Origin: a virus
Virus record (IMG/VR): IMGVR_UViG_3300042562_000746
Span: 1 to 64,000 of that record
Length of the DNA: 64,000 nucleotides
Direction: 5' to 3' (one strand)
Within the stretch, counting starts at the first letter, position 1. Every line of letters begins with the position of its first letter. Made by a program: the position numbers and the translations under genes. Below are positions 4,979 to 24,885 of the stretch, in pieces. The notes beneath the pieces were generated by a model. It was not told where the DNA came from and ran no database searches. It saw only the letters and a list, made by a program, of their open reading frames with translations.

Positions 4979-4998
4979 TTGGGAATCAACGAGTTACG
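4979..4998 (-). promoter_or_regulatory. 20-bp upstream element, copy 1
   Basis: Plus-strand TTGGGAATCAACGAGTTACG, a variant of the recurring element TTGATAATCAATTAGTTA. It lies between the stop of 5045-5368 and the ligase promoter, about 55 bases upstream of the -7 box. The rest of the 175-bp intergenic region 4870-5044 holds only the promoter and leader. Confidence 0.6.
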
Positions 4999-5044
4999 CC
5001 AATATAACCCTAACATATTAGGTATTTTTAATATATGATACCTA

Positions 5045-5368
5045 TTATTTAAAATTATAGTTATCCAATTTTGCCAAACATTTAGTTATCATAACTGCCA
5101 AATCGGCTGCACTTCTAACATCTGAATTATCTATTTCGACTTCGGTAGCTGCTGCCCATCCCATAACATATAGTTTATAATTACCTTGTGGTTTTTTATC
5201 TCTGTCTAAATAAACTTCACAATCCGGTTTGCCCGCACCATCATCTTTAAATACAAATACATAAGAATCATAATTCATTCTTTGATTATGTAGATTATAA
5301 AATTCTTTTATGGTTCGGCTATTACACGTATAACCAACCATTTTTTCTATGTTTTTTATTGTTAGCAT
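5045..5368 (-). CDS. MLTIKNI-family small protein C
   Basis: 107 residues beginning MLTIKNIEKMVGYTC. Predicted strands (YDSYVFVFKDDG, CEVYLDRDKKPQGNYKLYVMG) are followed by a C-terminal helix (SAADLAVMITKCLAKLDNY). It shares N-terminus and overall plan with its neighbours but little sequence in between. Last gene before a regulatory intergenic region. Function unknown. Confidence 0.75.
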   Translation of the reverse strand: MLTIKNIEKMVGYTCNSRTIKEFYNLHNQRMNYDSYVFVFKDDGAGKPDCEVYLDRDKKPQGNYKLYVMGWAAATEVEIDNSDVRSAADLAVMITKCLAKLDNYNFK

Positions 5369-5369
5369 G

Positions 5370-5645
5370 TTATATTAATTCATCTATTAAAAATCGGATA
5401 AAGATATCTCTATCCCCTATACTCTCTATTGGTAGGTAGTGTCTATTACCTGTCTCTTGGCAATACATAAGATAATCACCATTGGATGTCTTAACCCTAC
5501 CAATGCTAAAGTTAAACATATCAAAGGGTGAGCCATTATGTACTACTTTAATAAGATAGTTATCCTTCGACTTAGTCACATAGTGTATCTTCCAATGGCC
5601 AACGTATGTCCCCGTAAGAGAATCTATGTTTTTTATTGTAAGCAT
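5370..5645 (-). CDS. MLTIKNI-family small protein D
   Basis: The start at 5645 (MLTIKNIDSLTG) gives 91 residues and follows the stop of the upstream gene (5647) by one base, matching the family N-terminus better than the longer in-frame alternative. Strands (DNYLIKVVHNGSP, MFNFSIGRVK, GDYLMYCQE) and a C-terminal helix (DIFIRFLIDELI) repeat the family plan. Function unknown. Confidence 0.72.
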   Translation of the reverse strand: MLTIKNIDSLTGTYVGHWKIHYVTKSKDNYLIKVVHNGSPFDMFNFSIGRVKTSNGDYLMYCQETGNRHYLPIESIGDRDIFIRFLIDELI

Positions 5646-5646
5646 A

Positions 5647-5910
5647 TTATAATTTTTCAAGTTTAGCAATTACATCCATTACATCTTCGGGTCTTAAATA
5701 ACCAAGTACATCATTCGTAATCGGCGTATCGTAACATATTTCACCATCTTTGAAAATAGCTAATTCATACAATCCGATATCACCACCATACGAGTGCGGA
5801 CTTTGTACTACTGATACTTCATATCCATTATCTAATTTAGTTCTACTTACAATACCAAAATCAGCACCCATAGGGTTTGTTTTAAATTCAATATCTTTAA
5901 ATGTTTTCAT
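5647..5910 (-). CDS. Conserved small phage protein with SYGGDIGLYELA motif
   Basis: 87 residues. The central motif SYGGDIGLYELAIFKDG followed by ICYDTPITNDVLGYL is, from memory, a recurrent small-protein family in tailed phages; no function is known to me. Overall plan (beta core, C-terminal helix EDVMDVIAKLEKL) resembles the MLTIKNI-type neighbours. It is the first gene after the promoter at 5931-5962. Confidence 0.8.
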   Translation of the reverse strand: MKTFKDIEFKTNPMGADFGIVSRTKLDNGYEVSVVQSPHSYGGDIGLYELAIFKDGEICYDTPITNDVLGYLRPEDVMDVIAKLEKL

Positions 5911-5930
5911 AATTTGTTTTATTTAATCTA

Positions 5931-5962
5931 TAAAGGTAGTTAATTTTTCTGATACTACCAAA
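5931..5962 (-). promoter_or_regulatory. Promoter, 20-nt spacing, for the 5910 gene and downstream operon
   Basis: Minus strand: TTTG at 5962-5959, exactly 20 nt, then TACCTTTA at 5938-5931, 21 bases before the start codon at 5910. The -33 box lies over the last bases of the preceding gene region, separating the 5964-and-up operon from the downstream one. Confidence 0.75.
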
Positions 5963-5963
5963 T

Positions 5964-6314
5964 CTATTTATATGCTTTAATAGGTTTAATTTTCATTTGC
6001 CAATTATTGTTACCCGCCATTTGGCATATCATATAACCAAACCAATCTTTGTTTTTAATACAATTCAAAGTCACTTCGGTTCTTAAATGAGATGCGTGTG
6101 TTTGATACATAACATAGTTACCACTATATTTTGCACTACTATCCCTTAATAAAGTAAATCCAATATAATCTTGTATTGTTCCATTTCCTTTTGTCAATGA
6201 AACTGTTATTGCATACTTTTCCGTACCTTCGTTTATATCCTCAATAGATAATGTATAACCATCACATTCAATATAATCACCTTTAAGTTCATTATAGTTT
6301 TTAATATTTAACAT
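5964..6314 (-). CDS. MLTIKNI-family small protein E
   Basis: 116 residues beginning MLNIKNYNELKGDY. Beta-strand-like segments (KYAITVSLTKGNGTIQDYIG, KYSGNYVMYQTH) precede a C-terminal region with WFGYMICQMAGNNNW and a basic tail. It ends a long leftward operon just before the 5931-5962 promoter. Function unknown. Confidence 0.72.
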   Translation of the reverse strand: MLNIKNYNELKGDYIECDGYTLSIEDINEGTEKYAITVSLTKGNGTIQDYIGFTLLRDSSAKYSGNYVMYQTHASHLRTEVTLNCIKNKDWFGYMICQMAGNNNWQMKIKPIKAYK

Positions 6315-6317
6315 ACA

Positions 6318-6845
6318 CTATGGTTTAAGTAGTTTAATATGTTTACACGTTTGTGGTGTTTCTTTACTATATTGGTATGCAGGACAAGTACAACTCCAGT
6401 CACTCGTACCCAATACATTTTCTGTCACTTGATATAATAAATTAGGACCTGATTGACTTGCTACACTATGTATAATTTCGGTTAATGTCATATCAGTCAT
6501 GCCCATTGTATCAGGTTGTACCACTTCTAAATTAACTTTATTTGCCACATCATACATACTATCGATAACAAATTCCTTAAATCGTTCTATTGTTAGAATT
6601 GAATCTTTTACGATAGGTATATTTTCATGTATATACCAACCATCCATACCATCACCGATTGCACATATTTTAACATTATATTGGTTTTTATCCCAATTCA
6701 TTTCAAACAATACACAATTACTCCAACTTCCGTCGTGTACTTGTTGAACAAAGAATCCCTCTTTACATACATCAATTTCAATTTCAGTATTTCCAAATTT
6801 AATTTTTTCGTTATCTACTTTGTGAAAGTTTTCTGGCTTTTTCAT
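6318..6845 (-). CDS. SWIM zinc-finger protein 1
   Basis: 175 residues. The C-terminus carries a SWIM-type zinc finger, CxC...CxH: WSCTCPAYQYSKETPQTCKH (residues about 151-170). The first 110 residues have the beta core and helix plan of the MLTIKNI-type neighbours (NVKICAIGDGMDGWYIHENI, then RFKEFVIDSMYDVANKV), so this looks like a fusion of that domain to a SWIM finger. SWIM fingers bind DNA or proteins; a second SWIM protein is at 9011-9349. Role in the phage unknown. Confidence 0.8.
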   Translation of the reverse strand: MKKPENFHKVDNEKIKFGNTEIEIDVCKEGFFVQQVHDGSWSNCVLFEMNWDKNQYNVKICAIGDGMDGWYIHENIPIVKDSILTIERFKEFVIDSMYDVANKVNLEVVQPDTMGMTDMTLTEIIHSVASQSGPNLLYQVTENVLGTSDWSCTCPAYQYSKETPQTCKHIKLLKP

Positions 6846-7246
6846 ATTTTATAAATTTTAATTTTTGTTAATTTAGTTTGTTTATCGTTTGCTCCAATTA
6901 ATATATCAATTCGTTTCTTATATCGTTTGTTCATTACATCGTGAACTCTATATGTACCATCATATTTACCGGCACCAACAATTCTAATCTTTTGTCCAAA
7001 CTTATATTTCTTTTTTAAATCTCTACTAACTGCAATAATTCTATGTTTCTTTGGATTAGTAATCTTAAATCCACTCGCAGTTATATTTGGTGTACTATCC
7101 GTTTCGGCTGCATTTGCTTTATATGTGGTTAGTGTCACTATTTCGGGAGTAATCGTTTCAATCATTGTGTTGATTCTTAATTCCTCTCGTTCCATTTCGT
7201 AAGGTAAACATACCATTGCGATTGCTAGTATTATATTGTAATTCAT
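6842..7246 (-). CDS. 3D-domain (double-psi beta-barrel) protein, possible peptidoglycan-active enzyme
   Basis: 134 residues. Residues about 36-120 follow the 3D-domain pattern: TTYKANAAETDSTPNITASG, IIAVSRDL, KFGQKIRIVG, YDGTYRVHDVMNKRY and RIDILI, with the three conserved aspartates (TDS, HDV, IDI). This fold is shared with MltA and RlpA and often cleaves peptidoglycan glycans. The N-terminus (MNYNIILAIAMVCLPYEM) is hydrophobic and may be an export signal or anchor. A lysis or DNA-entry role is plausible. It overlaps the next gene by an ATGA junction. Confidence 0.78.
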   Translation of the reverse strand: MNYNIILAIAMVCLPYEMEREELRINTMIETITPEIVTLTTYKANAAETDSTPNITASGFKITNPKKHRIIAVSRDLKKKYKFGQKIRIVGAGKYDGTYRVHDVMNKRYKKRIDILIGANDKQTKLTKIKIYKI

Positions 7247-7249
7247 AAC

Positions 7250-7579
7250 TTATAATAATTTAGGTGTCCATTCATCCGTTAGTAATTTAAGTTTGTCCAT
7301 TAGACTATCCATATTGACAATATCTTCATGCTTTATCCAATAGGGATATCTTACACAATATGCTTCATTACTCCATTTTCCAATTGTATAATAACCATCC
7401 GATATAGCTGATGGGTTAAGTTCTACCGGCCTTCTATTTAATATAATGATATGTCTCATATTACCTCGCCATACATTAATTCTATATTCATCTCTCCTTT
7501 CATCAATATCCTCAATGTAGTTTTTATCATCCCATTCTTTACGGAATAGTTTTTCAAAGTTCTTAATTGTTAGTTTCAT
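7250..7579 (-). CDS. MLTIKNI-family small protein F
   Basis: The start at 7579 gives MKLTIKNFEKLFRKEW, matching the siblings; this overlaps the end of 7563-7940 by 17 bases. 109 residues with charged strands (DEYRINVWRGNMRHIIILNR, GYYTIGKWSNEAYCVRY) and a C-terminal helix (DSLMDKLKLLTDEW). Function unknown. Confidence 0.72.
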   Translation of the reverse strand: MKLTIKNFEKLFRKEWDDKNYIEDIDERRDEYRINVWRGNMRHIIILNRRPVELNPSAISDGYYTIGKWSNEAYCVRYPYWIKHEDIVNMDSLMDKLKLLTDEWTPKLL

Positions 7580-7940
7580 AATATTTTCTTTTATGTCTTT
7601 CTTCAAATTTATCTTCTACTAATTGTGCTGCTTTATTATATCCTTTATCTTTTAGTAATATGATTGCAAACATATCAGCCGCAACTTCATCACTTTCGTT
7701 TCTATCCTTTGTGTGTTTCAACATTATATGTGCTACTTCATGTGCTTCTACCCACCGCAATTCATCTTTGGTCAATTTCACTTCACCATCTATGAATACA
7801 CAACCCGAACTTGTCTCAGCGAAACCAAAACCACATTGTTCAAATAATGGTTTCATCACTTCATATCGGTAGTCATCTTTGGTTAGTATTGCAACTGCAA
7901 CATCACTTTTGAACTCACTAAAATATGTTTTTGTTTTCAT
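7563..7940 (-). CDS. HExxH metallopeptidase-like protein (ImmA/IrrE-like)
   Basis: 125 residues with a zinc-metallopeptidase motif WVEAHEVAHIMLKH around residues 63-76 and a downstream glutamate in DEVAADMFA, the arrangement of the M78 ImmA/IrrE group. Family members cleave repressors or other regulators, but here the substrate is unknown. The preceding GCVFIDGEVKLTKDELRW forms the usual edge strand. It is compact and lacks an attached helix-turn-helix. Confidence 0.75.
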   Translation of the reverse strand: MKTKTYFSEFKSDVAVAILTKDDYRYEVMKPLFEQCGFGFAETSSGCVFIDGEVKLTKDELRWVEAHEVAHIMLKHTKDRNESDEVAADMFAIILLKDKGYNKAAQLVEDKFEERHKRKYYETNN

Positions 7941-8299
7941 TAACTTTTAATTAAATCGTTAAGCATACTTTGAATATTTACTACCGATGATATTCTTTCC
8001 TTATCATATCCTTTATGGAATAAAGGTAGATATGAACCATTCGGTCGTTTTTCAAATAACTGAACTTCAATGTGATTATTTACATTGTTTAATGTAATAT
8101 CCATTCTCATTATTTCCGGTACTGCAAATGTTGTTGGTAACCAGTTGAAATGAACTCCATATTTTTTATATGTCCCATCATTTCCTAAATCGGTCACTTT
8201 GGTGCATACATATTGTTGTGTATTTGCGGAGAACATACCAATAGTAAATACCTTATCCATCAACATCATTGGTCCTCTTGCCATTTTTTGAATACTCAT
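7940..8299 (-). CDS. Small beta-rich phage protein
   Basis: 119 residues (MSIQKMARGPMMLMDKVFTI...). Predicted strands and the ending VVNIQSMLNDLIKS resemble the beta core plus terminal helix plan of the MLTIKNI group, without the shared N-terminus. Stop and start overlap the upstream gene at 7940. Function unknown. Confidence 0.68.
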   Translation of the reverse strand: MSIQKMARGPMMLMDKVFTIGMFSANTQQYVCTKVTDLGNDGTYKKYGVHFNWLPTTFAVPEIMRMDITLNNVNNHIEVQLFEKRPNGSYLPLFHKGYDKERISSVVNIQSMLNDLIKS

Positions 8300-8317
8300 A
8301 ACTTATTGTTTTTAATT

Positions 8318-8533
8318 TTATCTATATAATGTTACAAACTCACCGAACTCTCTATCAAATACTTCTATTAAATGGTCATAGTTACCCTTCATCATTTCTG
8401 CTTGAATAGCTTTACTATCTAATCCTAATTGTTTAGCTAATCTACTAGCCATACCAATCAATACAAACGCGTTACCATCAGGTCCCGTCAAATCGATTTC
8501 AATTCCTAACTTTTGTTCTTTACTTTTTATCAT
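8318..8533 (-). CDS. Conserved small phage protein (71 aa)
   Basis: Start chosen at 8533 (MIKSKEQKLGIEIDL...), where the upstream bases AAAATTAAAAGTTATG match the initiation context of many genes here; a start at 8569 would add 12 residues and overlap the small frame at 8520-8627. The sequence contains DLTGPDGNAFVLIGMASRLA and HLIEVFDREFGEFVTLYR, a pattern I associate with small proteins of T4-type marine phages. No function known. Confidence 0.75.
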   Translation of the reverse strand: MIKSKEQKLGIEIDLTGPDGNAFVLIGMASRLAKQLGLDSKAIQAEMMKGNYDHLIEVFDREFGEFVTLYR

Positions 8534-8627
8534 AACTTTTAATTTTATTTGTGTGTCTTTCCATTTCATGATGTTGTTTTATCCACTCTCTAAGAATGAA
8601 TAGAACTTTTGTTATTATTGTTTTCAT
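8520..8627 (-). CDS. Possible small protein (35 aa)
   Basis: An ATG at 8627-8625, one base after the stop of the gene at 8629, opens 35 codons (MKTIITKVLFILREWIKQHH...) ending 12 bases inside the next gene. The TAATATG junction is the usual one here, but the frame is short and could be chance. Confidence 0.4.
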   Translation of the reverse strand: MKTIITKVLFILREWIKQHHEMERHTNKIKSYDKK

Positions 8628-8628
8628 A

Positions 8629-9006
8629 TTACCACCAACTTGTGTAATATACTGTCTTACCATTTGCTATTGCTTCCCTTGCTTTAGTAACAAATAACAA
8701 ATCGTTTTCATTTTCTTCATCACCATTAGAACTCTCACCAAAAAAGAAACCGGATGTATCAGGCAAATTACCTTCTCTAATATCCGCTTCTAATGCATCT
8801 AAATCAAAAGTATCTAATACAACACAATCACCATTAAAACTATCCGATGTTCCACCCTTTGTATCATATATAGATTGCATCCATCCATGTAAGTTAGGAT
8901 GTTTTCTCCAATAGTGAACTTCCTCTGGTTTAAAATTCTTAGTTTCAAAGTCTACATCCGTTTTCGGTTTTGCGTTAGTAGAAAACGCGTACATGTCTAA
9001 TCCCAT
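8629..9006 (-). CDS. Conserved phage protein, GLDMY...HYWRKHPNLHGWM family
   Basis: 125 residues starting MGLDMYAFS, with WRKHPNLHGWMQSIYDTKGG, GNLPDTSGFFFGESS and the ending TVYYTSWW. From memory this is a widespread small family in phages and bacteria with no established function; it is acidic in the middle and soluble. Homologues begin at the same MGLDMY, which supports the start. Confidence 0.82.
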   Translation of the reverse strand: MGLDMYAFSTNAKPKTDVDFETKNFKPEEVHYWRKHPNLHGWMQSIYDTKGGTSDSFNGDCVVLDTFDLDALEADIREGNLPDTSGFFFGESSNGDEENENDLLFVTKAREAIANGKTVYYTSWW

Positions 9007-9010
9007 AATT

Positions 9011-9349
9011 TTACTTTTTATTTTTTATTGATACAATATGTTTACAATCTTTACCTCGTCCGAAACCATGTGCCGGACAACTACAACTCCAAAATCCTTC
9101 ATCATTTACTACTTTGTATATGTTACCTTTACTACCCGCCACTTTAAACTCTTTAAGTTTAGTTTTTATTAGTTTAGGTTTTTTACCATACTCAATTTTA
9201 TCCCACATCCTTTCTAATTCATTCCAACTATACCATCTATTTACTTCTATCCACCCGCTGCTTTTTTCACCACCGGTACATACAATCCATGTCTTACCGG
9301 ATAAAGGTGATTCAAAACAAATAGGTGGTAATACTGATTTGATTCTCAT
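9011..9349 (-). CDS. SWIM zinc-finger protein 2
   Basis: 112 residues ending in a SWIM finger, WSCSCPAHGFGRGKDCKH (residues about 88-105, CxC...CxH), preceded by a strand region (KEFKVAGSKGNIYKVVNDEG). The finger closely resembles the one at 6318-6845, but the N-terminal part (KTWIVCTGGEKSSGWIEVNR) is unrelated. Probably a DNA- or protein-binding accessory factor; the target is unknown. Confidence 0.8.
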   Translation of the reverse strand: MRIKSVLPPICFESPLSGKTWIVCTGGEKSSGWIEVNRWYSWNELERMWDKIEYGKKPKLIKTKLKEFKVAGSKGNIYKVVNDEGFWSCSCPAHGFGRGKDCKHIVSIKNKK

Positions 9350-9359
9350 AACTTATTTT

Positions 9360-9695
9360 TTAATATTGATAATCTGCAATCTTTTCAACTGCGGTGTCAA
9401 TCGTGTCAATCAAACTATCAATGTAAACCATATCAAATGTTTTCTTAATTGAACTATCTGCATTAATTAAGTGTACTTCAAATGTATCACTCCAATCTAA
9501 TGTAATTAATACCCATCCTTTGTGATGATGTCCACTAACTTTAAATAATAAACCTTTATTATCTAAACTACTCATTTCACACATTCCCCAACTCCATACA
9601 ACAGGACCAACGGAACGAATATTGGTTAATAACTCTGATACATTAAACTCTCTTTTAAGTAAAGAGAATGAAACTGATTTGATTTTACTTGTCAT
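9360..9695 (-). CDS. Small beta-rich phage protein
   Basis: 111 residues with strands (GLLFKVSGHHHKGWVLITLD, FEVHLINADSSIKKTFDMVY) and a C-terminal helix (IDSLIDTIDTAVEKIADY), the plan of the MLTIKNI-type group. The start overlaps the stop of 9692-9850 as ATGA. Function unknown. Confidence 0.7.
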   Translation of the reverse strand: MTSKIKSVSFSLLKREFNVSELLTNIRSVGPVVWSWGMCEMSSLDNKGLLFKVSGHHHKGWVLITLDWSDTFEVHLINADSSIKKTFDMVYIDSLIDTIDTAVEKIADYQY

Positions 9696-9850
9696 AACTT
9701 ATTTATTTTCTTTGAATACTCTTTGTTTATTATTATTGTTTCTATATCCGTATTAGTGGTCAATTGTGTAATATGTGAATAAGATAATTTGTTTATATTT
9801 ACCCTATCACCTAACTTTGTCACTATGGTTATATCGTAGTATGTTTTCAT
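9692..9850 (-). CDS. Small hypothetical protein (52 aa)
   Basis: A 52-codon frame (MKTYYDITIVTKLGDRVNIN...) exactly fills the gap between two genes: it starts in a TAATG overlap with the gene at 9850-10254 and ends in an ATGA overlap with the gene at 9360-9695. Double coupling strongly suggests a real gene. No family recognised. Confidence 0.68.
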   Translation of the reverse strand: MKTYYDITIVTKLGDRVNINKLSYSHITQLTTNTDIETIIINKEYSKKINKL

Positions 9851-10254
9851 TAGTCTAAATGATTTCTACCACCGGCACCCATTGTACCAAATGATGCCGT
9901 ACTCATAAATGTTTCAATACCATGTCTCTTAAATGGTTTTTCTTTCTTAGGTTTGATACCCATCTTACGATTGTATCTTTGTGTGAATAACAATAACAAA
10001 TCATAGAACCTATCTTTCCAAAACTCTATTGCTTTTGTTTCTACTTTATCGTACCTATCAACACGCTTTGCTCTACCATACTTAGTAACAATAGGCTCAC
10101 CCCAAACAGGTGTATAACATTTCACTTTTGTTTCACCTTCCATATCCTTCTTTGTTAAGTATGTTAAGGCTTCATTACATAAGTCTAAGGCTTCTTTATG
10201 ATAACCTGCTTTGCTCATCCATTTTGATTTCTCAATCGATTCTATTAAGTTCAT
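9850..10254 (-). CDS. Hypothetical phage protein (134 aa), TPR-like N-terminus
   Basis: 134 residues. The N-terminal helices (SIEKSKWMSKAGYHKEALDL, CNEALTYLTKKD) resemble a single tetratricopeptide-like hairpin. The middle is basic (KYGRAKRVDRYDKV) and the C-terminus ends GTMGAGGRNHLD. No signal or membrane segment. Function unknown. Confidence 0.7.
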   Translation of the reverse strand: MNLIESIEKSKWMSKAGYHKEALDLCNEALTYLTKKDMEGETKVKCYTPVWGEPIVTKYGRAKRVDRYDKVETKAIEFWKDRFYDLLLLFTQRYNRKMGIKPKKEKPFKRHGIETFMSTASFGTMGAGGRNHLD

Positions 10255-10255
10255 A

Positions 10256-10471
10256 TTAATTATTTTTAAAGTTTAAGTTAGAATATTTTTTCATATCGTA
10301 TTGTCTCATTAAGTCACCCGCATTTAGTTTCAATGTTGGGTCCTCATATGATTGAGATATATTTAACTCCCGCATCCAATTCTGAAATTCTAAACTGCCC
10401 ATTGTTTCTTCTCGTTGTTCTTCAATTTCTCTCATTTTAAGAAAGAATTTCATTTTAATTGTATCTAACAT
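10256..10471 (-). CDS. Small hypothetical protein (71 aa)
   Basis: 71 residues, highly charged (KMREIEEQREETMGSLEFQN), probably helical, ending LKNAG-type polar sequence (LNAGDLMRQYDMKKYSNLNF). It lies in a run of short genes with one- or two-base gaps. Not recognised. Confidence 0.65.
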   Translation of the reverse strand: MLDTIKMKFFLKMREIEEQREETMGSLEFQNWMRELNISQSYEDPTLKLNAGDLMRQYDMKKYSNLNFKNN

Positions 10472-10472
10472 T

Positions 10473-10667
10473 TTATTTGTTTTTATTTTTAAAAATTGCT
10501 TCTGTAATTATTAAGTAATACCATCTCGGTAAGTAAAATAAACATTTAATGAATACATAAAGATTGTATTTTACATCATGTTCTAATGCTCTACCTTTCA
10601 TTTGTTTTTTAATTGTATATAGTAACGGAAATAACGCTACAAAATATACTATCATAAATGTTCTCAT
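10473..10667 (-). CDS. Small membrane protein (64 aa)
   Basis: 64 residues with an N-terminal hydrophobic helix (FMIVYFVALFPLLYTI) and a second weaker hydrophobic segment (LYVFIKCLFYLPRWYYLIIT), ending in a lysine/asparagine tail. Probably an inner-membrane peptide. Function unknown. Confidence 0.65.
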   Translation of the reverse strand: MRTFMIVYFVALFPLLYTIKKQMKGRALEHDVKYNLYVFIKCLFYLPRWYYLIITEAIFKNKNK

Positions 10668-10668
10668 A

Positions 10669-11355: not shown

Positions 11356-11365
11356 GTTGTTTGTT

Positions 11366-11716: not shown

Positions 11717-11717
11717 A

Positions 11718-12206: not shown

Positions 12207-12236
12207 ATGTTATAGTTTTTAATTTAATTAATTTAT

Positions 12237-12470: not shown

Positions 12471-12482
12471 ATTTTATAGTTT

Positions 12483-12727: not shown

Positions 12728-12728
12728 A

Positions 12729-13577
12729 CTATTTTACTTTTACTAATTTACTTTGAGCGGCTTTTGTTATCATTGGATTAACATCATACACACTAAACTT
12801 GCTATCCATAGGGATAATGAATTTGTTATGTGCAGTATCAATCTTAGTTCTAACAAACTTAAACTTCAATCCTACAATTACACCCGTCTCATCTAAGTGT
12901 CTCATATCGTATGCATCACCATCAATTACTTTATAACCCATAAATGATATTGGTAATTGTTTACCTTCAAATACCATAGCAACTCTACCTTTATTATTTT
13001 CTAATAACTCTAATGATTGTAACATATTGTAACCACTAAAAGAATAAGTCAAATCATAGTTAGAATACTTATCTAACAACTTAAAGCGATTAGCAACCTT
13101 AGTATAATCATAAAATGTCACTTCGTTGAATATATCGAAAATCACTTTACCATTGAATTTAAACAATGTTGGCTGAATATCGGATGTGCCATTTAATCTA
13201 ACTGAAAATGTAAAACCTTTAGCAATTGCATCAGCTTTAGCTTTACTAATCTCAGCTACTAACCAACCCATAAAGAACTCTCTATGCTCAAAGAACAATT
13301 TAGTTTTTTTAATACGAGCTTTATTGATTGCGTTTTTCTTAACGTCAATTCTATTGTGTCCACTTTCAGTTAAACACGCTTCTCTACATTCAGCCGTTGA
13401 ACCCGGACAAACATTGTAACCACTTTGTTCAGCAGGAGCAAGATACAATATATAAGTCATTTCATTGTACTTTAAACCTTTAGCAATTTTAGATGAACTT
13501 GCTACACTACCTAAATAAGATAAACCAGTTAACTTTTTAGCATTACCAATTGTTGTAAACTTCATTGTGTTATTCAT
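12729..13577 (-). CDS. GP88-family phage protein
   Basis: 282 residues matching my memory of the phage gene-product-88 family: LTGLSYLGSVASSSKIAKG, EMTYILYLAPAEQSGYNVCP, a cysteine cluster CPGSTAECREAC, GWLVAEISKAKADA and FSVRLNGTSDIQ. The three close cysteines suggest a metal or Fe-S site, but the biochemical role of the family is not established. Homologues occur in many unrelated tailed phages. A second start at residue 5 (MKFTTIG) is possible. Confidence 0.82.
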   Translation of the reverse strand: MNNTMKFTTIGNAKKLTGLSYLGSVASSSKIAKGLKYNEMTYILYLAPAEQSGYNVCPGSTAECREACLTESGHNRIDVKKNAINKARIKKTKLFFEHREFFMGWLVAEISKAKADAIAKGFTFSVRLNGTSDIQPTLFKFNGKVIFDIFNEVTFYDYTKVANRFKLLDKYSNYDLTYSFSGYNMLQSLELLENNKGRVAMVFEGKQLPISFMGYKVIDGDAYDMRHLDETGVIVGLKFKFVRTKIDTAHNKFIIPMDSKFSVYDVNPMITKAAQSKLVKVK

Positions 13578-13601
13578 ATTATTATTTTTAAATTTTAGAA
13601 A

Positions 13602-13757: not shown

Positions 13758-13827
13758 ATTATAAATTTTTGTTATATAAGGACTCATTCTCTCGACTCAA
13801 TACATAAAGGTACGACTTTATATTGGA
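13755..13827 (-). repeat. Duplicated 73-nt promoter/leader cassette, copy 2
   Basis: Matches 4867-4939 at 70 of 73 positions, from the start codon back to TCCAATATAAAGTCG upstream of the -7 box. It includes the leader TATTGAGTCGAGAGAATGAG and the A/T-rich stretch before ATG. Confidence 0.85.
13805..13812 (-). promoter_or_regulatory. Promoter -7 box for the 13757 transcription unit
   Basis: TACCTTTA on the minus strand, inside the duplicated cassette. I see no TTTG at the standard 20-nt distance, so this copy may depend on the 20-bp elements upstream (13877-13991) or on a phage factor. Confidence 0.5.
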
Positions 13828-13876
13828 CTTTGAACAGTCAAAGGTAACTATTTTTAGGTTTTTCAAAGATTTTTGA

Positions 13877-13896
13877 CTGACTATCAATGAGTTACA
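13877..13896 (-). promoter_or_regulatory. 20-bp upstream element, copy 2
   Basis: Plus-strand CTGACTATCAATGAGTTACA, a variant of TTGATAATCAATTAGTTA. It lies about 65 bases upstream of the -7 box at 13805. Confidence 0.6.
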
Positions 13897-13940
13897 TATA
13901 TGATTTTTTTATATATGGGTAAAAAGGTGTAGACATAGAT

Positions 13941-13988
13941 AACCCATTGAGAATCAATAAGTTATAACTCTTTGATAATCAATGGGTT
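13941..13988. repeat. Inverted repeat around two 20-bp elements
   Basis: AACCCATTGA at 13941-13950 is the reverse complement of TCAATGGGTT at 13979-13988. The arms overlap elements 3 and 4, so the region could pair as a hairpin or bind a symmetric protein. The remaining parts of the 290-bp gene-free stretch 13758-14047 show only A/T-rich sequence. Confidence 0.55.
13947..13966 (-). promoter_or_regulatory. 20-bp upstream element, copy 3
   Basis: Plus-strand TTGAGAATCAATAAGTTATA; 25 bases from copy 4, the closest pair in the window. Confidence 0.62.
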
Positions 13989-13991
13989 AGG
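13972..13991 (-). promoter_or_regulatory. 20-bp upstream element, copy 4
   Basis: Plus-strand TTGATAATCAATGGGTTAGG, with the perfect 11-bp palindromic core TTGATAATCAA. Confidence 0.65.
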
Positions 13992-14047
13992 AATTTGAGT
14001 TATTATATTACATTTTTATATAATATCAACCCTTATTTTATGTATTA

Positions 14048-17198: not shown

Positions 17199-17200
17199 AA

Positions 17201-17931: not shown

Positions 17932-17959
17932 ACTCAAATATACTAATAAATAATGAATT

Positions 17960-17990
17960 AAAAAAATAAAGGGGAACATTTCTGCTCCCC
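17960..17990 (-). terminator. Intrinsic terminator after the DUF262-like gene
   Basis: Minus-strand hairpin GGGGAGC/GTTCCCC (17990-17971, six-base loop) followed by TTTATTTTTTT. It closes the single-gene unit 18002-19849. Confidence 0.8.
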
Positions 17991-18001
17991 GTTTGTATGT
18001 T

Positions 18002-19849
18002 TTAAACTACATTTTGTGTAGATATATTCATTAATGGATTTTCCAAATCTAAATTATCAATTGTGTTAGTACCACGTTTTGATTTAGATTTAATATGTCC
18101 TTTATGTTTAGTATTCCCAAATAATTCTGCTTTTCTCTTTGAAGCATTTCCAAATGATGGTAAAAACGATGTGTATGAAGGCATAGTAGTTGCATCAGTC
18201 CAATTAATGTCACTAAAGTAACCATCCTCTTGCTTATTTTCCATTTTAGAAATAAAAGCACTTTTCAAATTTTCATTAACTACATTAACAATTGTATCGT
18301 GTTTATCATGCCATCCGGTTACAAAACTATCTCCAATATGTTTGCGAAATGCTTTGTCTATATTATTCTTATCATATTGTGATTCCTTACATTTTGTTTC
18401 AATTGATTTGAAGCTTTTCAAAAAGTTAGAATCATCCATTTCTTCTTTAGAGGTAAAATATCTTCGACTAGATTGGTTTACCTTATCAAGTGTTTGTTTA
18501 CCATCTTCTGTTTCCCAATAATATGTATTGATTGGATGCATTGGATTGTTATAATACTCACATATTGCAATAAAATCAGTAATAACGTTTTCTAAATTAC
18601 TTAATTCTATCTTTGGTTTCCATATTCTACCAGACGAATCCATATATTGAAATACTTTAGTTATATAGTTATATAAAAATATAGATAAAATAAACATTGA
18701 TGGTTTTGATATTATCGCAGTTAACGCTTCATTATTATTTTCGTTACTTCCAATTTTGTTAAAAACTTTAGCAACTTTTAATAAATCTGATTTCATACTC
18801 TTTAAATCCGATTCGCTTATTTCACAATCTTTGCTTAAGATAGATGATAACATTTGTTGTTCATTCTTAAATCCAAATCTTTGTAATTGCTTTATATCAT
18901 AATAACATGTATCTGCTATAACTGATATGAGATATTCAAATCCACCATCTTTCTTTTGAAACTTACCTGTTCCAAATTTTACTGGATTTGCTTTACCATA
19001 TAACATCTCCAATATCCCACCTACTGAACTATCAGTTGTTTCTGATGCAATATTATCTCTAACAAAAATTGTAAATGGATTCTTTGTTAACTTAAACTTA
19101 TGTAGAAATTCTGACCAACTAGTGGATGAATTACTATACCATATAAATTTGGCTATATCTTCAAATGAATCTGCTTCAGTAATTTCAATTATATTGATAG
19201 GGCATTCACTTAAATATTTTAAATATATATTCGTTGTTTCTTCAACTGAAAGTCCTTTGAATTCTTTAATTTGTTTTGAAGGATTTGTTGAGGTACATTT
19301 TGTTTCTAAATCTTTTAAAGATTCAAATTTTATTTCCTTATCATTAACTATAAATGGTGCAAATTGAATTTCAGCATTTGTTTTTGGTAATTTACCAGTC
19401 AAATCACTTATATATTGTGTCATTCTATGTTGCCCATTAACTGAAAAATATTTATCTTTAAATCTCTTTTCAGAAAAATAGTTAATATCATCTTTCAAAT
19501 AAGCAATAGATGTATCATATATTGCCTTTTGCGATAATTCTGCATTTAATTTTGAAATTTCTTTAGTAGCTAATTCACTTTTCAATACTTTGATAATTGT
19601 TTTCGCTGAAATATAATATACCGGCGATGATGTACCAAATCCATTGGTAGCCGCCGTAACCATATTTTTACGAACTGCTTTCTTTAGTTCTTTAATATAT
19701 CTATTGATTCTAGTTGAATTAATAAATTTATCTTTATTTTCAAATATATATCTTAAATCACTACCCAATGCTTCAACTGCAATTCTTAATGATTTTTTGA
19801 TTTCTATTTTCTTTTTTCCATTTGAAATGGTAAAAATTGTTTTTAACAT
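18002..19849 (-). CDS. DUF262/ParB-like protein with HNH-like C-terminal motif
   Basis: 615 residues. Residues 134-146 (YFSVNGQHRMTQY) carry the NGQHR motif of DUF262/DGQHR proteins, a ParB-like nucleotide-binding fold found in GmrSD-type modification-dependent nucleases and phosphorothioate systems. Near the C-terminus, KHKGHIKSKSKRGTNTIDNL resembles the second half of an HNH motif seen in DUF262-linked nucleases. It is a single-gene unit with its own promoter (19872-19903) and terminator. It could degrade host or competitor DNA or act as a phage defence against other phages; nuclease activity is inferred only. Confidence 0.7.
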   Translation of the reverse strand: MLKTIFTISNGKKKIEIKKSLRIAVEALGSDLRYIFENKDKFINSTRINRYIKELKKAVRKNMVTAATNGFGTSSPVYYISAKTIIKVLKSELATKEISKLNAELSQKAIYDTSIAYLKDDINYFSEKRFKDKYFSVNGQHRMTQYISDLTGKLPKTNAEIQFAPFIVNDKEIKFESLKDLETKCTSTNPSKQIKEFKGLSVEETTNIYLKYLSECPINIIEITEADSFEDIAKFIWYSNSSTSWSEFLHKFKLTKNPFTIFVRDNIASETTDSSVGGILEMLYGKANPVKFGTGKFQKKDGGFEYLISVIADTCYYDIKQLQRFGFKNEQQMLSSILSKDCEISESDLKSMKSDLLKVAKVFNKIGSNENNNEALTAIISKPSMFILSIFLYNYITKVFQYMDSSGRIWKPKIELSNLENVITDFIAICEYYNNPMHPINTYYWETEDGKQTLDKVNQSSRRYFTSKEEMDDSNFLKSFKSIETKCKESQYDKNNIDKAFRKHIGDSFVTGWHDKHDTIVNVVNENLKSAFISKMENKQEDGYFSDINWTDATTMPSYTSFLPSFGNASKRKAELFGNTKHKGHIKSKSKRGTNTIDNLDLENPLMNISTQNVV

Positions 19850-19871
19850 ACTTTTAAATTTTAGTGTTTAT

Positions 19872-19903
19872 TAAATATACGAAATATAATTGGATTTACC
19901 AAA
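19872..19903 (-). promoter_or_regulatory. Promoter, 20-nt spacing, for the DUF262-like gene
   Basis: TTTG at 19903-19900, exactly 20 nt, TATATTTA at 19879-19872; start codon 19849 is 23 bases downstream. No 20-bp element is nearby. Confidence 0.78.
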
Positions 19904-20506
19904 TTATATATTTTGTTCTTTGTATAATTTCATATACTTGTCACTCATTTTTTTGTAGTTCATTCTGAAATTAGGGGGCATTGCTTCATAGATAGCTTTA
20001 TTACTATATGGTGCGTTGCCTGGTCTACTCCATCTCTTTGAGTATCTCATCCAATTATAAAACTGAATATATGCATTTGCTTTCTTAATGTAATCGTTAA
20101 GGTCAATTGGTAGTTTCCATTTCTTAATTAACTTTACCGAGCGTTTCTCATTATCCAATTCTAAATCTCTACTCCATTCTATTGCGTTTTTAATGCTACG
20201 AATTTTCTTGCCACCCAACCAATCGTCTAAATGGGTCACTCCGGTCGAACCGGTTTTCCATATGTTAGTGCTCTTATCTTGCCATTGTGTTAAGTGTGCA
20301 TATTCATGTGTTAATATACCTAACCAATCTTTACTTTTACCCGCTACTACTAATCTCATAGTTTCCTCACAAAAGTAACCACTACATCTTATATTACCAC
20401 TCAATACTAAATATTTTACAGGTCGTATTTGGCATCTAATCCCCACTTCCTTACAATGTCCTTTCACATGATTAATGAAAGCTCTTACGTTTTTTGTTAA
20501 TGCCAT
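19904..20506 (-). CDS. Phage metallopeptidase-like protein (HExxH)
   Basis: 200 residues. The motif LGILTHEYAHLTQW (residues about 82-95) is a zinc-binding HExxH helix, and residues 1-75 are basic with four cysteines (HCKEVGIRCQIR, IRCSGYFCEE). The C-terminus is a helical aromatic region (YIQFYNWMRYSKRWSRPGNA). T4-type phages often encode such putative metallopeptidases; no substrate is known. Last gene of the unit that starts with the MoxR-like ATPase upstream, separated from it by a terminator. Confidence 0.72.
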   Translation of the reverse strand: MALTKNVRAFINHVKGHCKEVGIRCQIRPVKYLVLSGNIRCSGYFCEETMRLVVAGKSKDWLGILTHEYAHLTQWQDKSTNIWKTGSTGVTHLDDWLGGKKIRSIKNAIEWSRDLELDNEKRSVKLIKKWKLPIDLNDYIKKANAYIQFYNWMRYSKRWSRPGNAPYSNKAIYEAMPPNFRMNYKKMSDKYMKLYKEQNI

Positions 20507-20524
20507 TTTGTTTTATTATTAATT

Positions 20525-20560
20525 TAAAAAATAAAGGAGGGTACAAATTGTACCCCCCTT
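20525..20560 (-). terminator. Intrinsic terminator after the MoxR-like gene
   Basis: Near-perfect inverted repeat AAGGGGGGTACAA/TTGTACCCTCCTT on the minus strand (20560-20534) followed by a T-rich run. It separates the ATPase gene from 19904-20506; the latter's start at 20506 would then rely on read-through or an unseen promoter. Confidence 0.75.
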
Positions 20561-20615
20561 AGTTATTTAGGTATAGTCGTTATGAGTATGTATAAAACTA
20601 TACCCTCATAACATA

Positions 20616-21848
20616 TTACCAAACAATAGTATCGTCATTCGCATCTTCCTCTTTCACTTCGTTGAATAACTTTTCACCTTCATTCTCATCTACTACGAAT
20701 TTTTGTATAAGTTGCTTAATGTAAGTACGCTCACTATCCATACCACCATCTTGTGAATAGAACGGGAAGATTGCTACCTCAGCTGCTTCTAACAAACTGA
20801 AACCATCATACAACAAACCTGCCATCTCTACTGAAATACGAGTTGATACAGCAGTTGTCAATTTACCCGCCTCACCTTTGATTTGGTCTCTAGTGTGTGC
20901 CGCAATCTCTGCTACTGATTTCAAATTGTAATCATTCGTATCAGGATATAACATCTTTAACAATTCATATTCCTGCTCAGCATTCAATACATCTACCTCA
21001 ATTGTCACGAATCTATCTAACAATGCTCTATCCATTACACGCGTTGCAGTATATTCAGAACCGATGTTTGCAGTTGCAATAAAGGTAACACCTTCTGCCA
21101 CCTTAACAATTGGTGAATTTTCTTGCTCATCTAATCGTAAGTATCTTTGTGTTTGGTCTAACACTGTCATTAGGATATTAGCGGCTTCTGGATGAGCTCT
21201 ACTTAATTCATCTAATAACACAACTGCGTAAGGTGTCTTAATAGCTTTAACGAATGCACTCTCACTAAAATAAGTACCACTTGCTTTGTTAAAGTGTGTG
21301 TTACCAATTAATGCCGCCCTCGGGTCTTGCGTCGCACCTAAGTTAAAGTAATGAAACGGTCTTTTCAATGCCGCAACTAATGCTTTAGCTGCCATTGTCT
21401 TACCACTACCCGCAGGTCCTGTCATCATAATATTTCGCGCTCGAACCGCTGAACGTAATAAATATTTCCACTTCAACTCGTTCATAATTAAGTTAGCAGG
21501 TTTTAACGCCATACCCTCTTTATGAATGAAATCGATAACATCTTTATGCTCCGTTGGATTTTCTACGATAGTTTCAGCGATATCCGTATTCATCGGCTTA
21601 ACCAACATATCCGTATATTCTTGCATTTCTACCATACGATAGCTTTTAGCTCCGTTTTTGTTTACATGCGCACGAATTGCTTTATTTTGTGCTGATGCTT
21701 TTTTTCGTAAAGAACTACCTACTATTGTAGAATCTGAACTACTTAATACATCACCCGCAGTATTAACTAAGTTAAAACGGGATTTAAGATTTTCTACTTT
21801 GTACACTTCATTTGTGTAACCATACTCTTGTGTTGCTTTTTTACTCAT
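20616..21848 (-). CDS. MoxR-like AAA+ ATPase
   Basis: 410 residues. Walker A GPAGSGKTMAAK at 144-155, Walker B VVLLDELSRAHPEA around 209, sensor-like TFIATANIGSEYTATRVMDR and an arginine-finger region ALLDRFVTIEVD. This is the MoxR/CobS branch, which works with VWA-domain partners to remodel or insert metals into proteins. The VWA protein encoded just upstream (22024-24168) is the obvious partner. T4-type cyanophages carry CobS-like ATPases of this kind; their role is unresolved. Own promoter at 21895-21926. Confidence 0.87.
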   Translation of the reverse strand: MSKKATQEYGYTNEVYKVENLKSRFNLVNTAGDVLSSSDSTIVGSSLRKKASAQNKAIRAHVNKNGAKSYRMVEMQEYTDMLVKPMNTDIAETIVENPTEHKDVIDFIHKEGMALKPANLIMNELKWKYLLRSAVRARNIMMTGPAGSGKTMAAKALVAALKRPFHYFNLGATQDPRAALIGNTHFNKASGTYFSESAFVKAIKTPYAVVLLDELSRAHPEAANILMTVLDQTQRYLRLDEQENSPIVKVAEGVTFIATANIGSEYTATRVMDRALLDRFVTIEVDVLNAEQEYELLKMLYPDTNDYNLKSVAEIAAHTRDQIKGEAGKLTTAVSTRISVEMAGLLYDGFSLLEAAEVAIFPFYSQDGGMDSERTYIKQLIQKFVVDENEGEKLFNEVKEEDANDDTIVW

Positions 21849-21894
21849 AACTGAATTTTTAATGTTTATTGTTTAATTATTGTTTGATATATCA

Positions 21895-21926
21895 TAAAGA
21901 TACGAAATTCTGCCCACACTACCAAA
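21895..21926 (-). promoter_or_regulatory. Promoter, 20-nt spacing, for the MoxR-like ATPase
   Basis: TTTG at 21926-21923, exactly 20 nt, TATCTTTA at 21902-21895; start codon at 21848. Two 20-bp elements (21942 and 21991) lie directly upstream. Confidence 0.82.
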
Positions 21927-21941
21927 ACTATTTATAACCTA

Positions 21942-21961
21942 TTGAATATCAACACATTATA
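21942..21961 (-). promoter_or_regulatory. 20-bp upstream element, copy 5
   Basis: Plus-strand TTGAATATCAACACATTATA, 16 bases upstream of the -33 box of the 21895-21926 promoter. Confidence 0.58.
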
Positions 21962-21990
21962 CACATCCATTTAGGGTAATGTATAACACA

Positions 21991-22010
21991 TTGATAATCA
22001 ATTAGTTAAG
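21991..22010 (-). promoter_or_regulatory. 20-bp upstream element, copy 6
   Basis: Plus-strand TTGATAATCAATTAGTTAAG, perfect palindromic core TTGATAATCAA; 49 bases from copy 5. Confidence 0.68.
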
Positions 22011-22023
22011 TTTTAGTGTGTTT

Positions 22024-24168
22024 TTACGCTTTTTTCATAAAAAGCTCATTCATTGTTTTAATGATAGGAACGATTTGTTTAACATCAATAAAACGGCTGT
22101 CACTTCCGTACATTGTTTTAAAGTTGTCAGATGAACTACTATATGAACTGCCACCAACAAAGTAACTCATAACTTGTATACCCATATCTTTGATTTGTCC
22201 TACCATTTTCTTAGTGTGTAACAAAGCGTTTCTACCACTATAAGAACATTGTTGATTTGAGAATGTTGGCTCACCATCACATATGTTTAAGAAATAAGAA
22301 TCCATATCTTTGTTGCTCTCTACAAAATGTTTAAGTATCGCTTGATAACATAAACCTTCAGGTGTTGTACCATTGGCGTGTAATGCAGGAAACAATCTCT
22401 TAACTTTCTCAAACTTATCAAATCTACTATCATACGCAATACATATGTAAGGTTTATCACCCCACGTACCTCTGATAGAAACTTGTACATTTAAGTTACT
22501 TACCATTGATGCTGCTTTACAAATAGCAATTGTTACGGCTAATGTATCATCCCACACACTACCACTCATTGAACCACTACCATCAATAGTAACGTGCAAC
22601 ATTACTTTCTTAAACCTATCTACTTCTTTGGTACTGAATACATTTACATAATCATATCCTAATGCTGCTACCATTCTCTTATCAATTCTACCATTCTTTT
22701 GGCGTGGATTGATTGTTTCTCTTTCCTCACTACGAACTGCAATACGCTTACCTAAGATTGTACCCATTACGATACCTCTTTGTAAAGTATCAGCATTCCA
22801 GTTATTCCATTTATCATTCCAAAAACTAGCGAAAGGGAACGAACTATCTTGCATCAATCCTTCGGTCATTTTCTTAGATACGATACATTGAACCGGTTGA
22901 ATATATCCACCATTCTCTAATTTAGTATCACCTACGGATTGCATTTCAGTTCCACTCTCAGCCATTTGGTCTAAGGTTTCATCCTCTTTCTTAGTTAATC
23001 CTTTCTTTTTGATATTGTTATTAACGAAGTCCTTTTGCTTTTGGATTTGTTTATCCAATTGTTTCTTAGCAGTATCACTCATTAAATCTTTACCATTACC
23101 AGTTTGTGAAGCACCACTCGTAGAGTCACCTTTCTCACCCATCACAGGTGCATCACCACCACTACCACCCATTTCATCGTTTTGTTTATCACCTGCCTCT
23201 GCTCCAGTTTCATTACCTGCTTCGTTTACATCTGCAGGGTCACCATTACCCTTACCTTTACCATCTTTACTTAAATCAACTAAGATATGTTGTAAGATAG
23301 TGTTGGTAATCTTTTCTGCTACCTCTAATGAATCGGTTGTATTTTTTAATCTACTAATATTCTTAAGGTCTAATGTTTCGTAGATTTCTTTCAAACCTTT
23401 CAATTTGTTAAGGTCAGTATTTTGATTTGTGATATTGATAATACGGAACATATACGATTGTAATGTTTCATCCGTATATTCATCACTTATCAATCCTTTG
23501 TCAATAGTCTTATCATAGAAATACTCATCATACAATGCTCTATAATAGTCTCTATAACCTGGACAAGTATTGTAGATATATTGGTCAATCCTTCTATCCT
23601 CTACAAAGTTTACCAATGATTTAACTACATCAAATAATTGTTCTTTGTTTCGATAATGTTGTGTACCATCAAAAGAAGGGTCATTTACATCTAAACCCGC
23701 TGCTTTTGCAAAGTTATTAAACATTTCGGTTGGTGCAGAATAAGCAGGCATTAATTCAAAGTCCGTAAGAACAATGTGTGATGCTTCGTGCAATGCCAAA
23801 CCTACCGCGATATCAAACTTTTCAGGTTTAACCTCAGCTGATAATACTACCGATTTACCATCAGTATAAGAATCACCTTTACGCGAAAACTTTACAGGAA
23901 TGTTTTTGTTTGTAAGAATGTTCACAAAGTTAGCAATTGCTCTCCTATGTGCATTCAACTTAATAAGGTCAGCAGTACTGCTTTCTACCTTATTGTACTC
24001 TTTTGGTTTCCAAGTATCACCACCCCAATATGTAGTAGGTGTGTCATAGGAACTCCATTCATCAGCCCAAAATGAACTCGCTGATTTTTTCTCTTTCTTT
24101 TTACTAGTGTACGAACCTTTAGTTAAATAATCTAAAGTACCCGTCTTAAAACTGTCATACCAACTCAT
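22024..24168 (-). CDS. VWA-domain protein with HEASH motif (CobT-like), partner of MoxR ATPase
   Basis: 714 residues. An N-terminal domain has VGLALHEASHIVL (HExxH at 127-131), a zinc-peptidase-like helix. A low-complexity acidic/glycine linker around 305-365 is followed by a C-terminal von Willebrand A domain with MIDAS motif TIDGSGSMSGS (529-534) and GTTPEGL supplying the distal threonine. This order resembles CobT-type subunits of metal chelatase-like pairs with MoxR/CobS ATPases. The pair may act on virion or host proteins; the HExxH helix raises the possibility of a regulated protease. Target unknown. Confidence 0.83.
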   Translation of the reverse strand: MSWYDSFKTGTLDYLTKGSYTSKKKEKKSASSFWADEWSSYDTPTTYWGGDTWKPKEYNKVESSTADLIKLNAHRRAIANFVNILTNKNIPVKFSRKGDSYTDGKSVVLSAEVKPEKFDIAVGLALHEASHIVLTDFELMPAYSAPTEMFNNFAKAAGLDVNDPSFDGTQHYRNKEQLFDVVKSLVNFVEDRRIDQYIYNTCPGYRDYYRALYDEYFYDKTIDKGLISDEYTDETLQSYMFRIINITNQNTDLNKLKGLKEIYETLDLKNISRLKNTTDSLEVAEKITNTILQHILVDLSKDGKGKGNGDPADVNEAGNETGAEAGDKQNDEMGGSGGDAPVMGEKGDSTSGASQTGNGKDLMSDTAKKQLDKQIQKQKDFVNNNIKKKGLTKKEDETLDQMAESGTEMQSVGDTKLENGGYIQPVQCIVSKKMTEGLMQDSSFPFASFWNDKWNNWNADTLQRGIVMGTILGKRIAVRSEERETINPRQKNGRIDKRMVAALGYDYVNVFSTKEVDRFKKVMLHVTIDGSGSMSGSVWDDTLAVTIAICKAASMVSNLNVQVSIRGTWGDKPYICIAYDSRFDKFEKVKRLFPALHANGTTPEGLCYQAILKHFVESNKDMDSYFLNICDGEPTFSNQQCSYSGRNALLHTKKMVGQIKDMGIQVMSYFVGGSSYSSSSDNFKTMYGSDSRFIDVKQIVPIIKTMNELFMKKA

Positions 24169-24204
24169 ACTCTTTAAGTTTATATGTGAATAAATATTGT
24201 TAGA

Positions 24205-24249
24205 AGATAGTAGGGGAATCGAACCCCTACCATGTTTCCAAAACTATCT
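24205..24249 (-). ncRNA. tRNA-like acceptor/T-arm element (orphan, 45 nt)
   Basis: On the minus strand AGATAGT and ACTATCT form a perfect 7-bp stem (8 with the next A-T pair). Directly 5' of ACTATCT sits AGGGGTTCGATTCCCCT, a 5-bp stem with the T-loop sequence TTCGATT, so the two helices can stack as in the acceptor/T half of a tRNA. Only 14 nt replace the D and anticodon arms and there is no encoded CCA, so it is not a normal tRNA. It lies in the 96-nt gap before the VWA gene. It may be a tRNA remnant, a processing signal or an RNA mimic. Confidence 0.45.
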
Positions 24250-24264
24250 TAGTTTATCTGCGAA

Positions 24265-24435
24265 TTAAGCAGAAATCTTAGCTCTACTAGCTAATTGTTG
24301 TAATCTTTGAGAATAGTACAACGCTCTACTTGTGTAGTAAGTACGCTTTTGCTCACTACTTGTAGTGTTTGCATTTGTTAAAGCTTCTGTCAATTGATTC
24401 GTGATAAATTCGAACTTTGATTTTAAAGTAACCAT
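24265..24435 (-). CDS. Small helical protein (56 aa)
   Basis: A 56-codon frame (MVTLKSKFEFITNQLTEALT...SRAKISA) in the space between the CxxC protein and the VWA gene. Polar, helical, serine/threonine/alanine rich. The size, position and codon use fit its neighbours; no homologue is recognised. Confidence 0.65.
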   Translation of the reverse strand: MVTLKSKFEFITNQLTEALTNANTTSSEQKRTYYTSRALYYSQRLQQLASRAKISA

Positions 24436-24487
24436 TTTGTGTTTTCCAGTTTTTTATGTGGTGGCTCCACGTTTATTAAAAAAATCT

Positions 24488-24733
24488 TTAATTGCTTTTC
24501 ATACCTTTACATACCCCATATCCTTGTCTTTGTGATAATCTATATAATCGTGCAGCATCTGCAGCAGGCATAATTTGTATTTCGTTACCCGTCTTATGAT
24601 TTGCTATTGCAACCCCACCAACTTTTTCTACCGAACTACAATTGATACAATTTCGATATCCGTATTTTTCATATCTAAGTTGCGGCATATCGTTTTTACA
24701 TTTAATACATTTAATCATTAATAACTTACCCAT
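24488..24733 (-). CDS. Two-CxxC zinc protein, DksA/TraR-like
   Basis: From the start at 24733, downstream of the promoter at 24757-24788, the protein has 81 residues (MGKLLMIKCIKCKNDMPQL...). CIKC and CINC, 18 residues apart with MPQLRYEKYGYR between, resemble the zinc finger of DksA/TraR regulators that bind in the RNA polymerase secondary channel. The C-terminal part (NEIQIMPAADAARLYRLSQR) is helical. The family is common in T4-type phages; a transcription role is plausible but unproven. Confidence 0.7.
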   Translation of the reverse strand: MGKLLMIKCIKCKNDMPQLRYEKYGYRNCINCSSVEKVGGVAIANHKTGNEIQIMPAADAARLYRLSQRQGYGVCKGMKSN

Positions 24734-24756
24734 AATTATTATTGTTTGATGAAACA

Positions 24757-24788
24757 TAAAGATACGATAAATATCTGAAACCGCCAAA
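24757..24788 (-). promoter_or_regulatory. Promoter, 20-nt spacing, for the CxxC protein and VWA unit
   Basis: TTTG at 24788-24785, exactly 20 nt, TATCTTTA at 24764-24757; start 24733. Two 20-bp elements lie upstream (24815 and 24866). It likely drives the CxxC protein, the 56-aa gene, the tRNA-like element and the VWA gene. Confidence 0.82.
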
Positions 24789-24814
24789 CATTTTGGAAAG
24801 TATTTTGTAAGGTA

Positions 24815-24834
24815 CTGATATTCAGTTAGTTACA
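24815..24834 (-). promoter_or_regulatory. 20-bp upstream element, copy 7
   Basis: Plus-strand CTGATATTCAGTTAGTTACA; a variant in which the palindrome reads CTGATATTCAG. Confidence 0.58.
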
Positions 24835-24865
24835 CATTAGCGTTTATTCTAATATAGATAAGTCA

Positions 24866-24885
24866 TTGATTATCAATTAGTTAGG
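24866..24885 (-). promoter_or_regulatory. 20-bp upstream element, copy 8
   Basis: Plus-strand TTGATTATCAATTAGTTAGG, perfect palindromic core TTGATTATCAA; 51 bases from copy 7 and overlapping the stop codon of 24881-25318. Confidence 0.66.

Follow-up and report, generated by a model that had tools for sequence, protein, structure and literature searches.

The stretch of DNA discussed here, which we call the window, is the first 64 kb (positions 1 to 64,000) of the 126,250-bp virus record IMGVR_UViG_3300042562_000746, in which nearly all genes are on the minus strand. It carries copies of a symmetric 25-bp inverted repeat, consensus TAACnnrTTGAtWaTCAAynnGTTA, that is probably the operator of a dimeric regulator acting on a group of genes in one lineage of large uncultured phages, with activation the probable mode of control. 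We consider this the best reading because the repeats have a fixed position upstream of promoters, have dyad symmetry, are arranged in arrays and recur at the same genes in related phages. Almost nothing has so far been known of gene regulation in large uncultured phages of Bacteroidota, and the operator would define a regulon from sequence alone in phages of up to 289 kb. We found no earlier description of the core sequence or of promoter motifs in such phages, but the search covered open-licence literature only and is thus weak evidence of novelty.

A scan of the window with the pattern TAACnnATTGATWATCAATnnGTTA gave six clear copies in three pairs (starting at 13940/13965, 21935/21984 and 24808/24859), all intergenic and upstream of promoters, the genes concerned being those for a GP88-family protein, a MoxR-type AAA ATPase and a CxxC protein (Table 1). 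A weight matrix derived from these six copies scores them at 23-31, against a best score of 10-17 per genome in 20 simulated genomes of the same composition. As the matrix was made from the copies themselves, the independent support comes from the relatives discussed below. The matrix also found a strong copy at 75821 of the full record that had not been reported before, 84 bp upstream of the gene for transfer-messenger RNA (tmRNA).

The first-pass annotation had described eight 20-bp elements, all in the same orientation, with a palindromic core and an asymmetric flank thought to indicate a direction-dependent contact. Six of these (13947, 13972, 21942, 21991, 24815 and 24866) are real and above chance, while those at 13877 and 4979 are half-sites (starting at 13870 and 4972 in our coordinates) that are weak when scored alone with the matrix. 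The enrichment is clear, as the 18-mer used in that description has 12 matches in the window with up to 3 mismatches, against a mean of 1.14 and a maximum of 6 in 100 shuffled sequences. However the left TAAC arm had been overlooked, and the true unit is the 25-bp inverted repeat. The 18-mer search finds most of the elements on both strands, and a shared orientation says little because the element is a palindrome. The asymmetric flank is not a general feature either: the arms are symmetric, and among copies in relatives with a single intact outer arm that arm is promoter-distal in 7 and promoter-proximal in 7. The binding of a dimeric protein, also proposed, is what the symmetry would suggest. 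A degenerate ninth copy suggested at 45171-45190 (45163-45187 as a 25-bp unit) has a matrix score of 10.1, which is at chance level.

Relatives were gathered by a search with the MoxR protein, which gave 80 uncultured-virus loci, and the palindrome is upstream of MoxR in 19 of the 78 that could be tested, with a second occurrence about 3 kb further upstream in several. In a search allowing mismatches there were copies in 18 of 27 related records, the maximum being 24 in a 274-kb record, and the reversed control pattern had 0 matches in every one of the 27. The scored viral copies, a count that takes in some near-identical loci, number 251, of which 235 (about 94%) are intergenic and 16 are inside genes, in genomes that are 90-94% coding. 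The expectations that the element would be found in related phages and would avoid genes are thus both borne out. The genes that recur downstream are those for MoxR, the VWA protein, GP88 and the tmRNA/tRNA/GOLLD RNAs. Recurrence above chance, location at promoters and not in genes, and conservation at orthologous genes are the properties to be looked for in the operator of a regulon, and all three are seen here. The proposal of a co-regulated gene set is supported. Even at low score, three relatives of 188-253 kb gave no match to the palindrome, so that its presence is all or none among the genomes compared. Site-free relatives keep the MoxR promoter, without the sites, and two relatives in the site-bearing lineage have neither promoter nor site before MoxR; both observations favour the operator reading.

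The copy at 75821 is upstream of a tmRNA-headed operon with 19 tRNAs and a GOLLD RNA (283 bits; G000 71.3-75.8 kb, L005:7312-11749). GOLLD RNAs are also present in L256, G005, G014 and G019, and in three of the records with this RNA there is an operator copy 84-95 bp upstream of the GOLLD-RNA operon, which would tie this operon to a common control signal. The sites are at 22-112 kb of the 274 kb of G019, and at 5-25 kb and 76 kb in the present record, positions which suggest that the site-bearing genes are of the early or middle class.

The position of the sites relative to promoters is the best indication of how they may act. The promoters are of the Bacteroidota type, TTTG-N20-TATCTTTA, and a consensus promoter is present in 32 of 51 5' regions with a site, against 141 of 495 without (Fisher p = 2e-6). 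For 63 distinct promoters that have a site in their neighbourhood, the interval that begins 16 bp before the -33 box and ends 60 bp after it is free of sites, and in no case does a site overlap the promoter; the sites lie upstream of the -33 region, as expected for class I sites. The commonest distance from the -33 box to the nearest site centre is exactly 32 bp (12 of 53), corresponding to a centre at about -67, and there are further peaks near 21, 42-43 and 53-54 bp. Such peaks hint at dependence on the face of the helix, but the phasing, with p about 1e-3 for all sites, has p = 0.7 once the 32-bp mode is left out. For adjacent sites a separation of exactly 25 bp is the most frequent (28 cases), followed by 48-50 bp (13) and 37-38 bp (6). 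We envisage that a dimeric, sequence-specific DNA-binding regulator, probably phage-encoded, recognises the palindrome, and that one to five dimers would occupy sites that abut or nearly abut, a short distance upstream of promoters of the sigma-A type (-33 TTTG, -7 TAnnTTTG/A). The bound dimers would most likely raise transcription, touching RNA polymerase from about -57 to -90 in the manner of a class I activator.

Activation is favoured because there is no overlap with the core promoter, because of the preferred distance near -67, and because there is a class of promoters with a half-site and a poor -33 box. Paired and arrayed palindromes would also suit a phage or host repressor that silences these genes, for instance through cooperative binding or a loop that joins paired sites, and most of the promoters are strong. 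We think repression unlikely, since overlap with the core promoter in 0 of 63 distinct promoters would be unusual for it and the -33 box is poor in the half-site promoters, but keep it in view because many site-bearing promoters have a strong one.

The half-site class is best seen at the GP88 promoters of four phages, which are laid out alike: the full sites come first, followed by a spacer that contains an inverted repeat centred on an A tract, then the half-site, and last a weak -33 region ahead of a -7 box. Three of these phages have two abutting full sites, and G005 has five. An A-rich tract takes the place of the half-site arm that faces the promoter, and it is only in this class that there is true directional asymmetry. 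The distance from half-site centre to -7 box, counted by eye, is 60, 60, 61, 61 or 70 bp, including the ligase half-site of the window, whose counterpart in the G001 ligase operon adjoins two full sites to form a cluster. This distance, the A-rich tract and the poor -33 box are what would suit an activated promoter. As a separate observation, the spacers between sites (13895-13917 in the window, and those of the paired sites of L013, L012 and L292) often hold an A-tract inverted repeat of their own, and their sequences differ.

A palindrome between genes could also function in RNA, as a hairpin or as an intrinsic terminator of the gene upstream, and 204 of the 251 scored copies are indeed between co-directional genes. 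However the viral palindrome ends at exactly 25 bp, further pairing being at the level of chance extension, the inner NN positions are often unpaired, and one outer arm is often TAAG against GTTA without compensating change on the other arm, which points to contact of protein with DNA rather than pairing in RNA. The stems are A+T-rich, only 5 placements are convergent against 17 divergent, and one distance to the downstream promoter stands out sharply. The sites thus do not look like the stable, compensatorily paired hairpins 3' of genes that intrinsic terminators form, and this explanation is very improbable. We give as little credence to the alternative in the first-pass annotation of a role in replication, or to one in partition, with the sites as iterons, an origin or parS-like elements. 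Repeated palindromes can be initiator sites, but here, in this record and in the relatives, many separate, scattered operons each have one to five copies on their 5' side, at a set position relative to the promoter, and the copies are not gathered in one dense cluster such as iterons form at an origin.

The palindrome is also present in bacterial genomes, mainly of Bacteroidota. The metagenome-assembled genome (MAG) Prado074 of Microscillaceae (G028, 6.8 Mb) has 579 copies with at most 1 mismatch (control 0), and there are 1-15 in most of the others tested. This raises the alternative that the phages exploit a regulator of the host, and that site-free relatives infect hosts without it, an arrangement compatible with activation, and one with which our not finding a phage-encoded binder would agree. 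But 126 of 148 genomes in the order of that MAG have no match, the 579 copies resemble dispersed intergenic repeats, and a host protein with so small a number of sites in the chromosome would seldom be of use to many phages, so we regard a host regulator as improbable. The MAG copies have a likeness to repetitive extragenic palindromic (REP) elements in that the same 25-bp sequence occurs hundreds of times; they are in other, dispersed intergenic contexts, whereas the phage copies are few and tied to promoters. In MAG-914 of candidate division NPL-UPA2 (L089, L091, L107, L124 and others) the palindrome is at many contig ends within one repeated sequence, which is probably the end of a mobile element. 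The host of the phage itself is probably a member of Bacteroidota, because of the promoter type and a distant similarity to Flavobacterium phage immuto, the closest isolate among those with a Bacteroidota host; no site was found in the 100 of 160 kb of immuto examined.

With regard to known systems, class I activators of the CRP/FNR type bind as dimers to a palindrome at about -60 to -90, upstream of the promoter, and the FNR box has half-sites TTGAT and ATCAA with a 4-bp spacer. The phage half-sites TTGAT and ATCAA resemble those of the FNR box, but the spacer is 1 bp and not 4 and there are added TAAC/GTTA arms, so that the site is not TTGAT-N4-ATCAA, and no CRP/FNR protein was found. The Ogr/Delta zinc-finger activators of P2/P4 late promoters are phage-encoded and use a dyad element at about -55. 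The likeness is that several phage promoters share a dyad element on their upstream side, but sequence, position and phage family differ, and the small zinc protein of the present regulon is found also where there is no site, and in contigs that lack the sites. The MotA box of T4 replaces the -35 element of middle promoters; it too marks one class of genes, and the present phage has a T4-like tail sheath, but the sites discussed here are upstream of a -33 box that is usually intact.

Several points weigh against a phage-encoded activator. The binding protein was not found by Pfam, by phyletic profile or among four candidate DNA-binding families, and there is no helix-turn-helix (HTH) transcription factor among the Pfam families listed for 215 proteins of the 274-kb relative; two of the three lists stop at 25 families, so that such a factor may lie beyond them. 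The helical phasing is significant only through the 32-bp mode, and the -33 box is perfect at many site-bearing promoters, which in principle should need no activator. No protein is present in all site-bearing phages and in no site-free phage, the best profiles being those of a cREC receiver-domain protein (24881-25318, minus strand) and a HAD phosphatase (2630-3154, minus strand) assigned to the RNA-repair type through its homologue in G019, each with homologues in seven other site-bearing phages and in 0 of 3 site-free ones. It is conceivable, though we put it forward with reserve, that a novel global regulator, with a DNA-binding domain that escapes Pfam, acts through spaced arrays of the 25-bp palindrome on a conserved regulon of this phage lineage, made up of the tmRNA/tRNA/GOLLD RNA, MoxR-VWA, GP88, ligase and RNA-repair-like genes. 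The palindrome would be a simple bait for finding it.

Four candidates for the binding protein were considered and set aside. A ribbon-helix-helix-like protein (44016-44213, assigned by eye, with no Pfam match) is also in site-free relatives, and the small zinc protein at 24488 occurs in site-free contigs as well and does not always follow a site. A 67-aa HTH protein is in all three site-free genomes tested, and a protein with HTH and HNH-like segments (27826-28452) is in almost every genome tested, also in site-free ones and in immuto. The last of these (minus strand) shows by eye an HTH-like segment at its N terminus and an HNH-like zinc domain that appears to have lost its catalytic histidines, and may be a domesticated, non-cutting endonuclease.

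The features of the window are given in Table 1. At the CxxC locus the order of transcription is sites, small CxxC protein and then the region of the 714-aa protein, homologues of which are directly downstream of sites in relatives.

Table 1. Sites, promoter boxes and target genes at the four loci of the window
Feature	Position	Strand	Sequence	Remarks
ATP-dependent DNA ligase, target operon	3760..4899	-		
Ligase operon -7 box	4917..4924	-	TATCTTTA	By eye; half-site centre 60 bp upstream
Ligase-operon half-site	4972..4996	-	TAACTCGTTGATTCCCAATAAAAAC	Score 8.3, weak alone; G001 counterpart at 33723
GP88-family protein, target operon	12729..13577	-		Pfam PF17338
GP88 operon -7 box	13805..13812	-	TACCTTTA	By eye; without good -33 TTTG at usual spacing
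GP88 promoter-proximal half-site	13870..13894	-	TAACTCATTGATAGTCAGTCAAAAA	Layout kept in G001, G002, G005
Inverted repeat around A/T tract	13895..13917	.		Between half-site and full sites; similar in G001, G002, G005
Full palindrome, GP88 promoter	13940..13964	.	TAACCCATTGAGAATCAATAAGTTA	Adjoins next site; pattern and matrix scan
Full palindrome	13965..13989	.	TAACTCTTTGATAATCAATGGGTTA	Exactly 25 bp from neighbour; pattern and matrix scan
MoxR/CbbQ-type AAA ATPase, target gene	20616..21848	-		
MoxR promoter -7 box	21895..21902	-	TATCTTTA	-33 TTTG at 21923-21926, spacer 20
Palindrome	21935..21959	.	TAACCTATTGAATATCAACACATTA	Centre 21 bp upstream of -33 box
Perfect-consensus palindrome	21984..22008	.	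TAACACATTGATAATCAATTAGTTA	49 bp from partner
714-aa protein	22024..24168	-		Weak match to cobalamin-biosynthesis-type phage proteins; VWA protein in first-pass annotation
Small CxxC...CxxC protein, target gene	24488..24718	-		Listed open reading frame 24488-24787; start probably 24718
CxxC-protein promoter -7 box	24757..24764	-	TATCTTTA	-33 TTTG at 24785-24788
Palindrome	24808..24832	.	TAAGGTACTGATATTCAGTTAGTTA	Centre 32 bp upstream of -33 box
Palindrome	24859..24883	.	TAAGTCATTGATTATCAATTAGTTA	51 bp from partner; overlaps stop codon of upstream cREC gene

The ligase and GP88 operons have in addition a near-identical promoter and 5' leader (4880-4935 and 13770-13825), and the likeness extends into the first codons (M-T/S-P-x-ITKIYNM).

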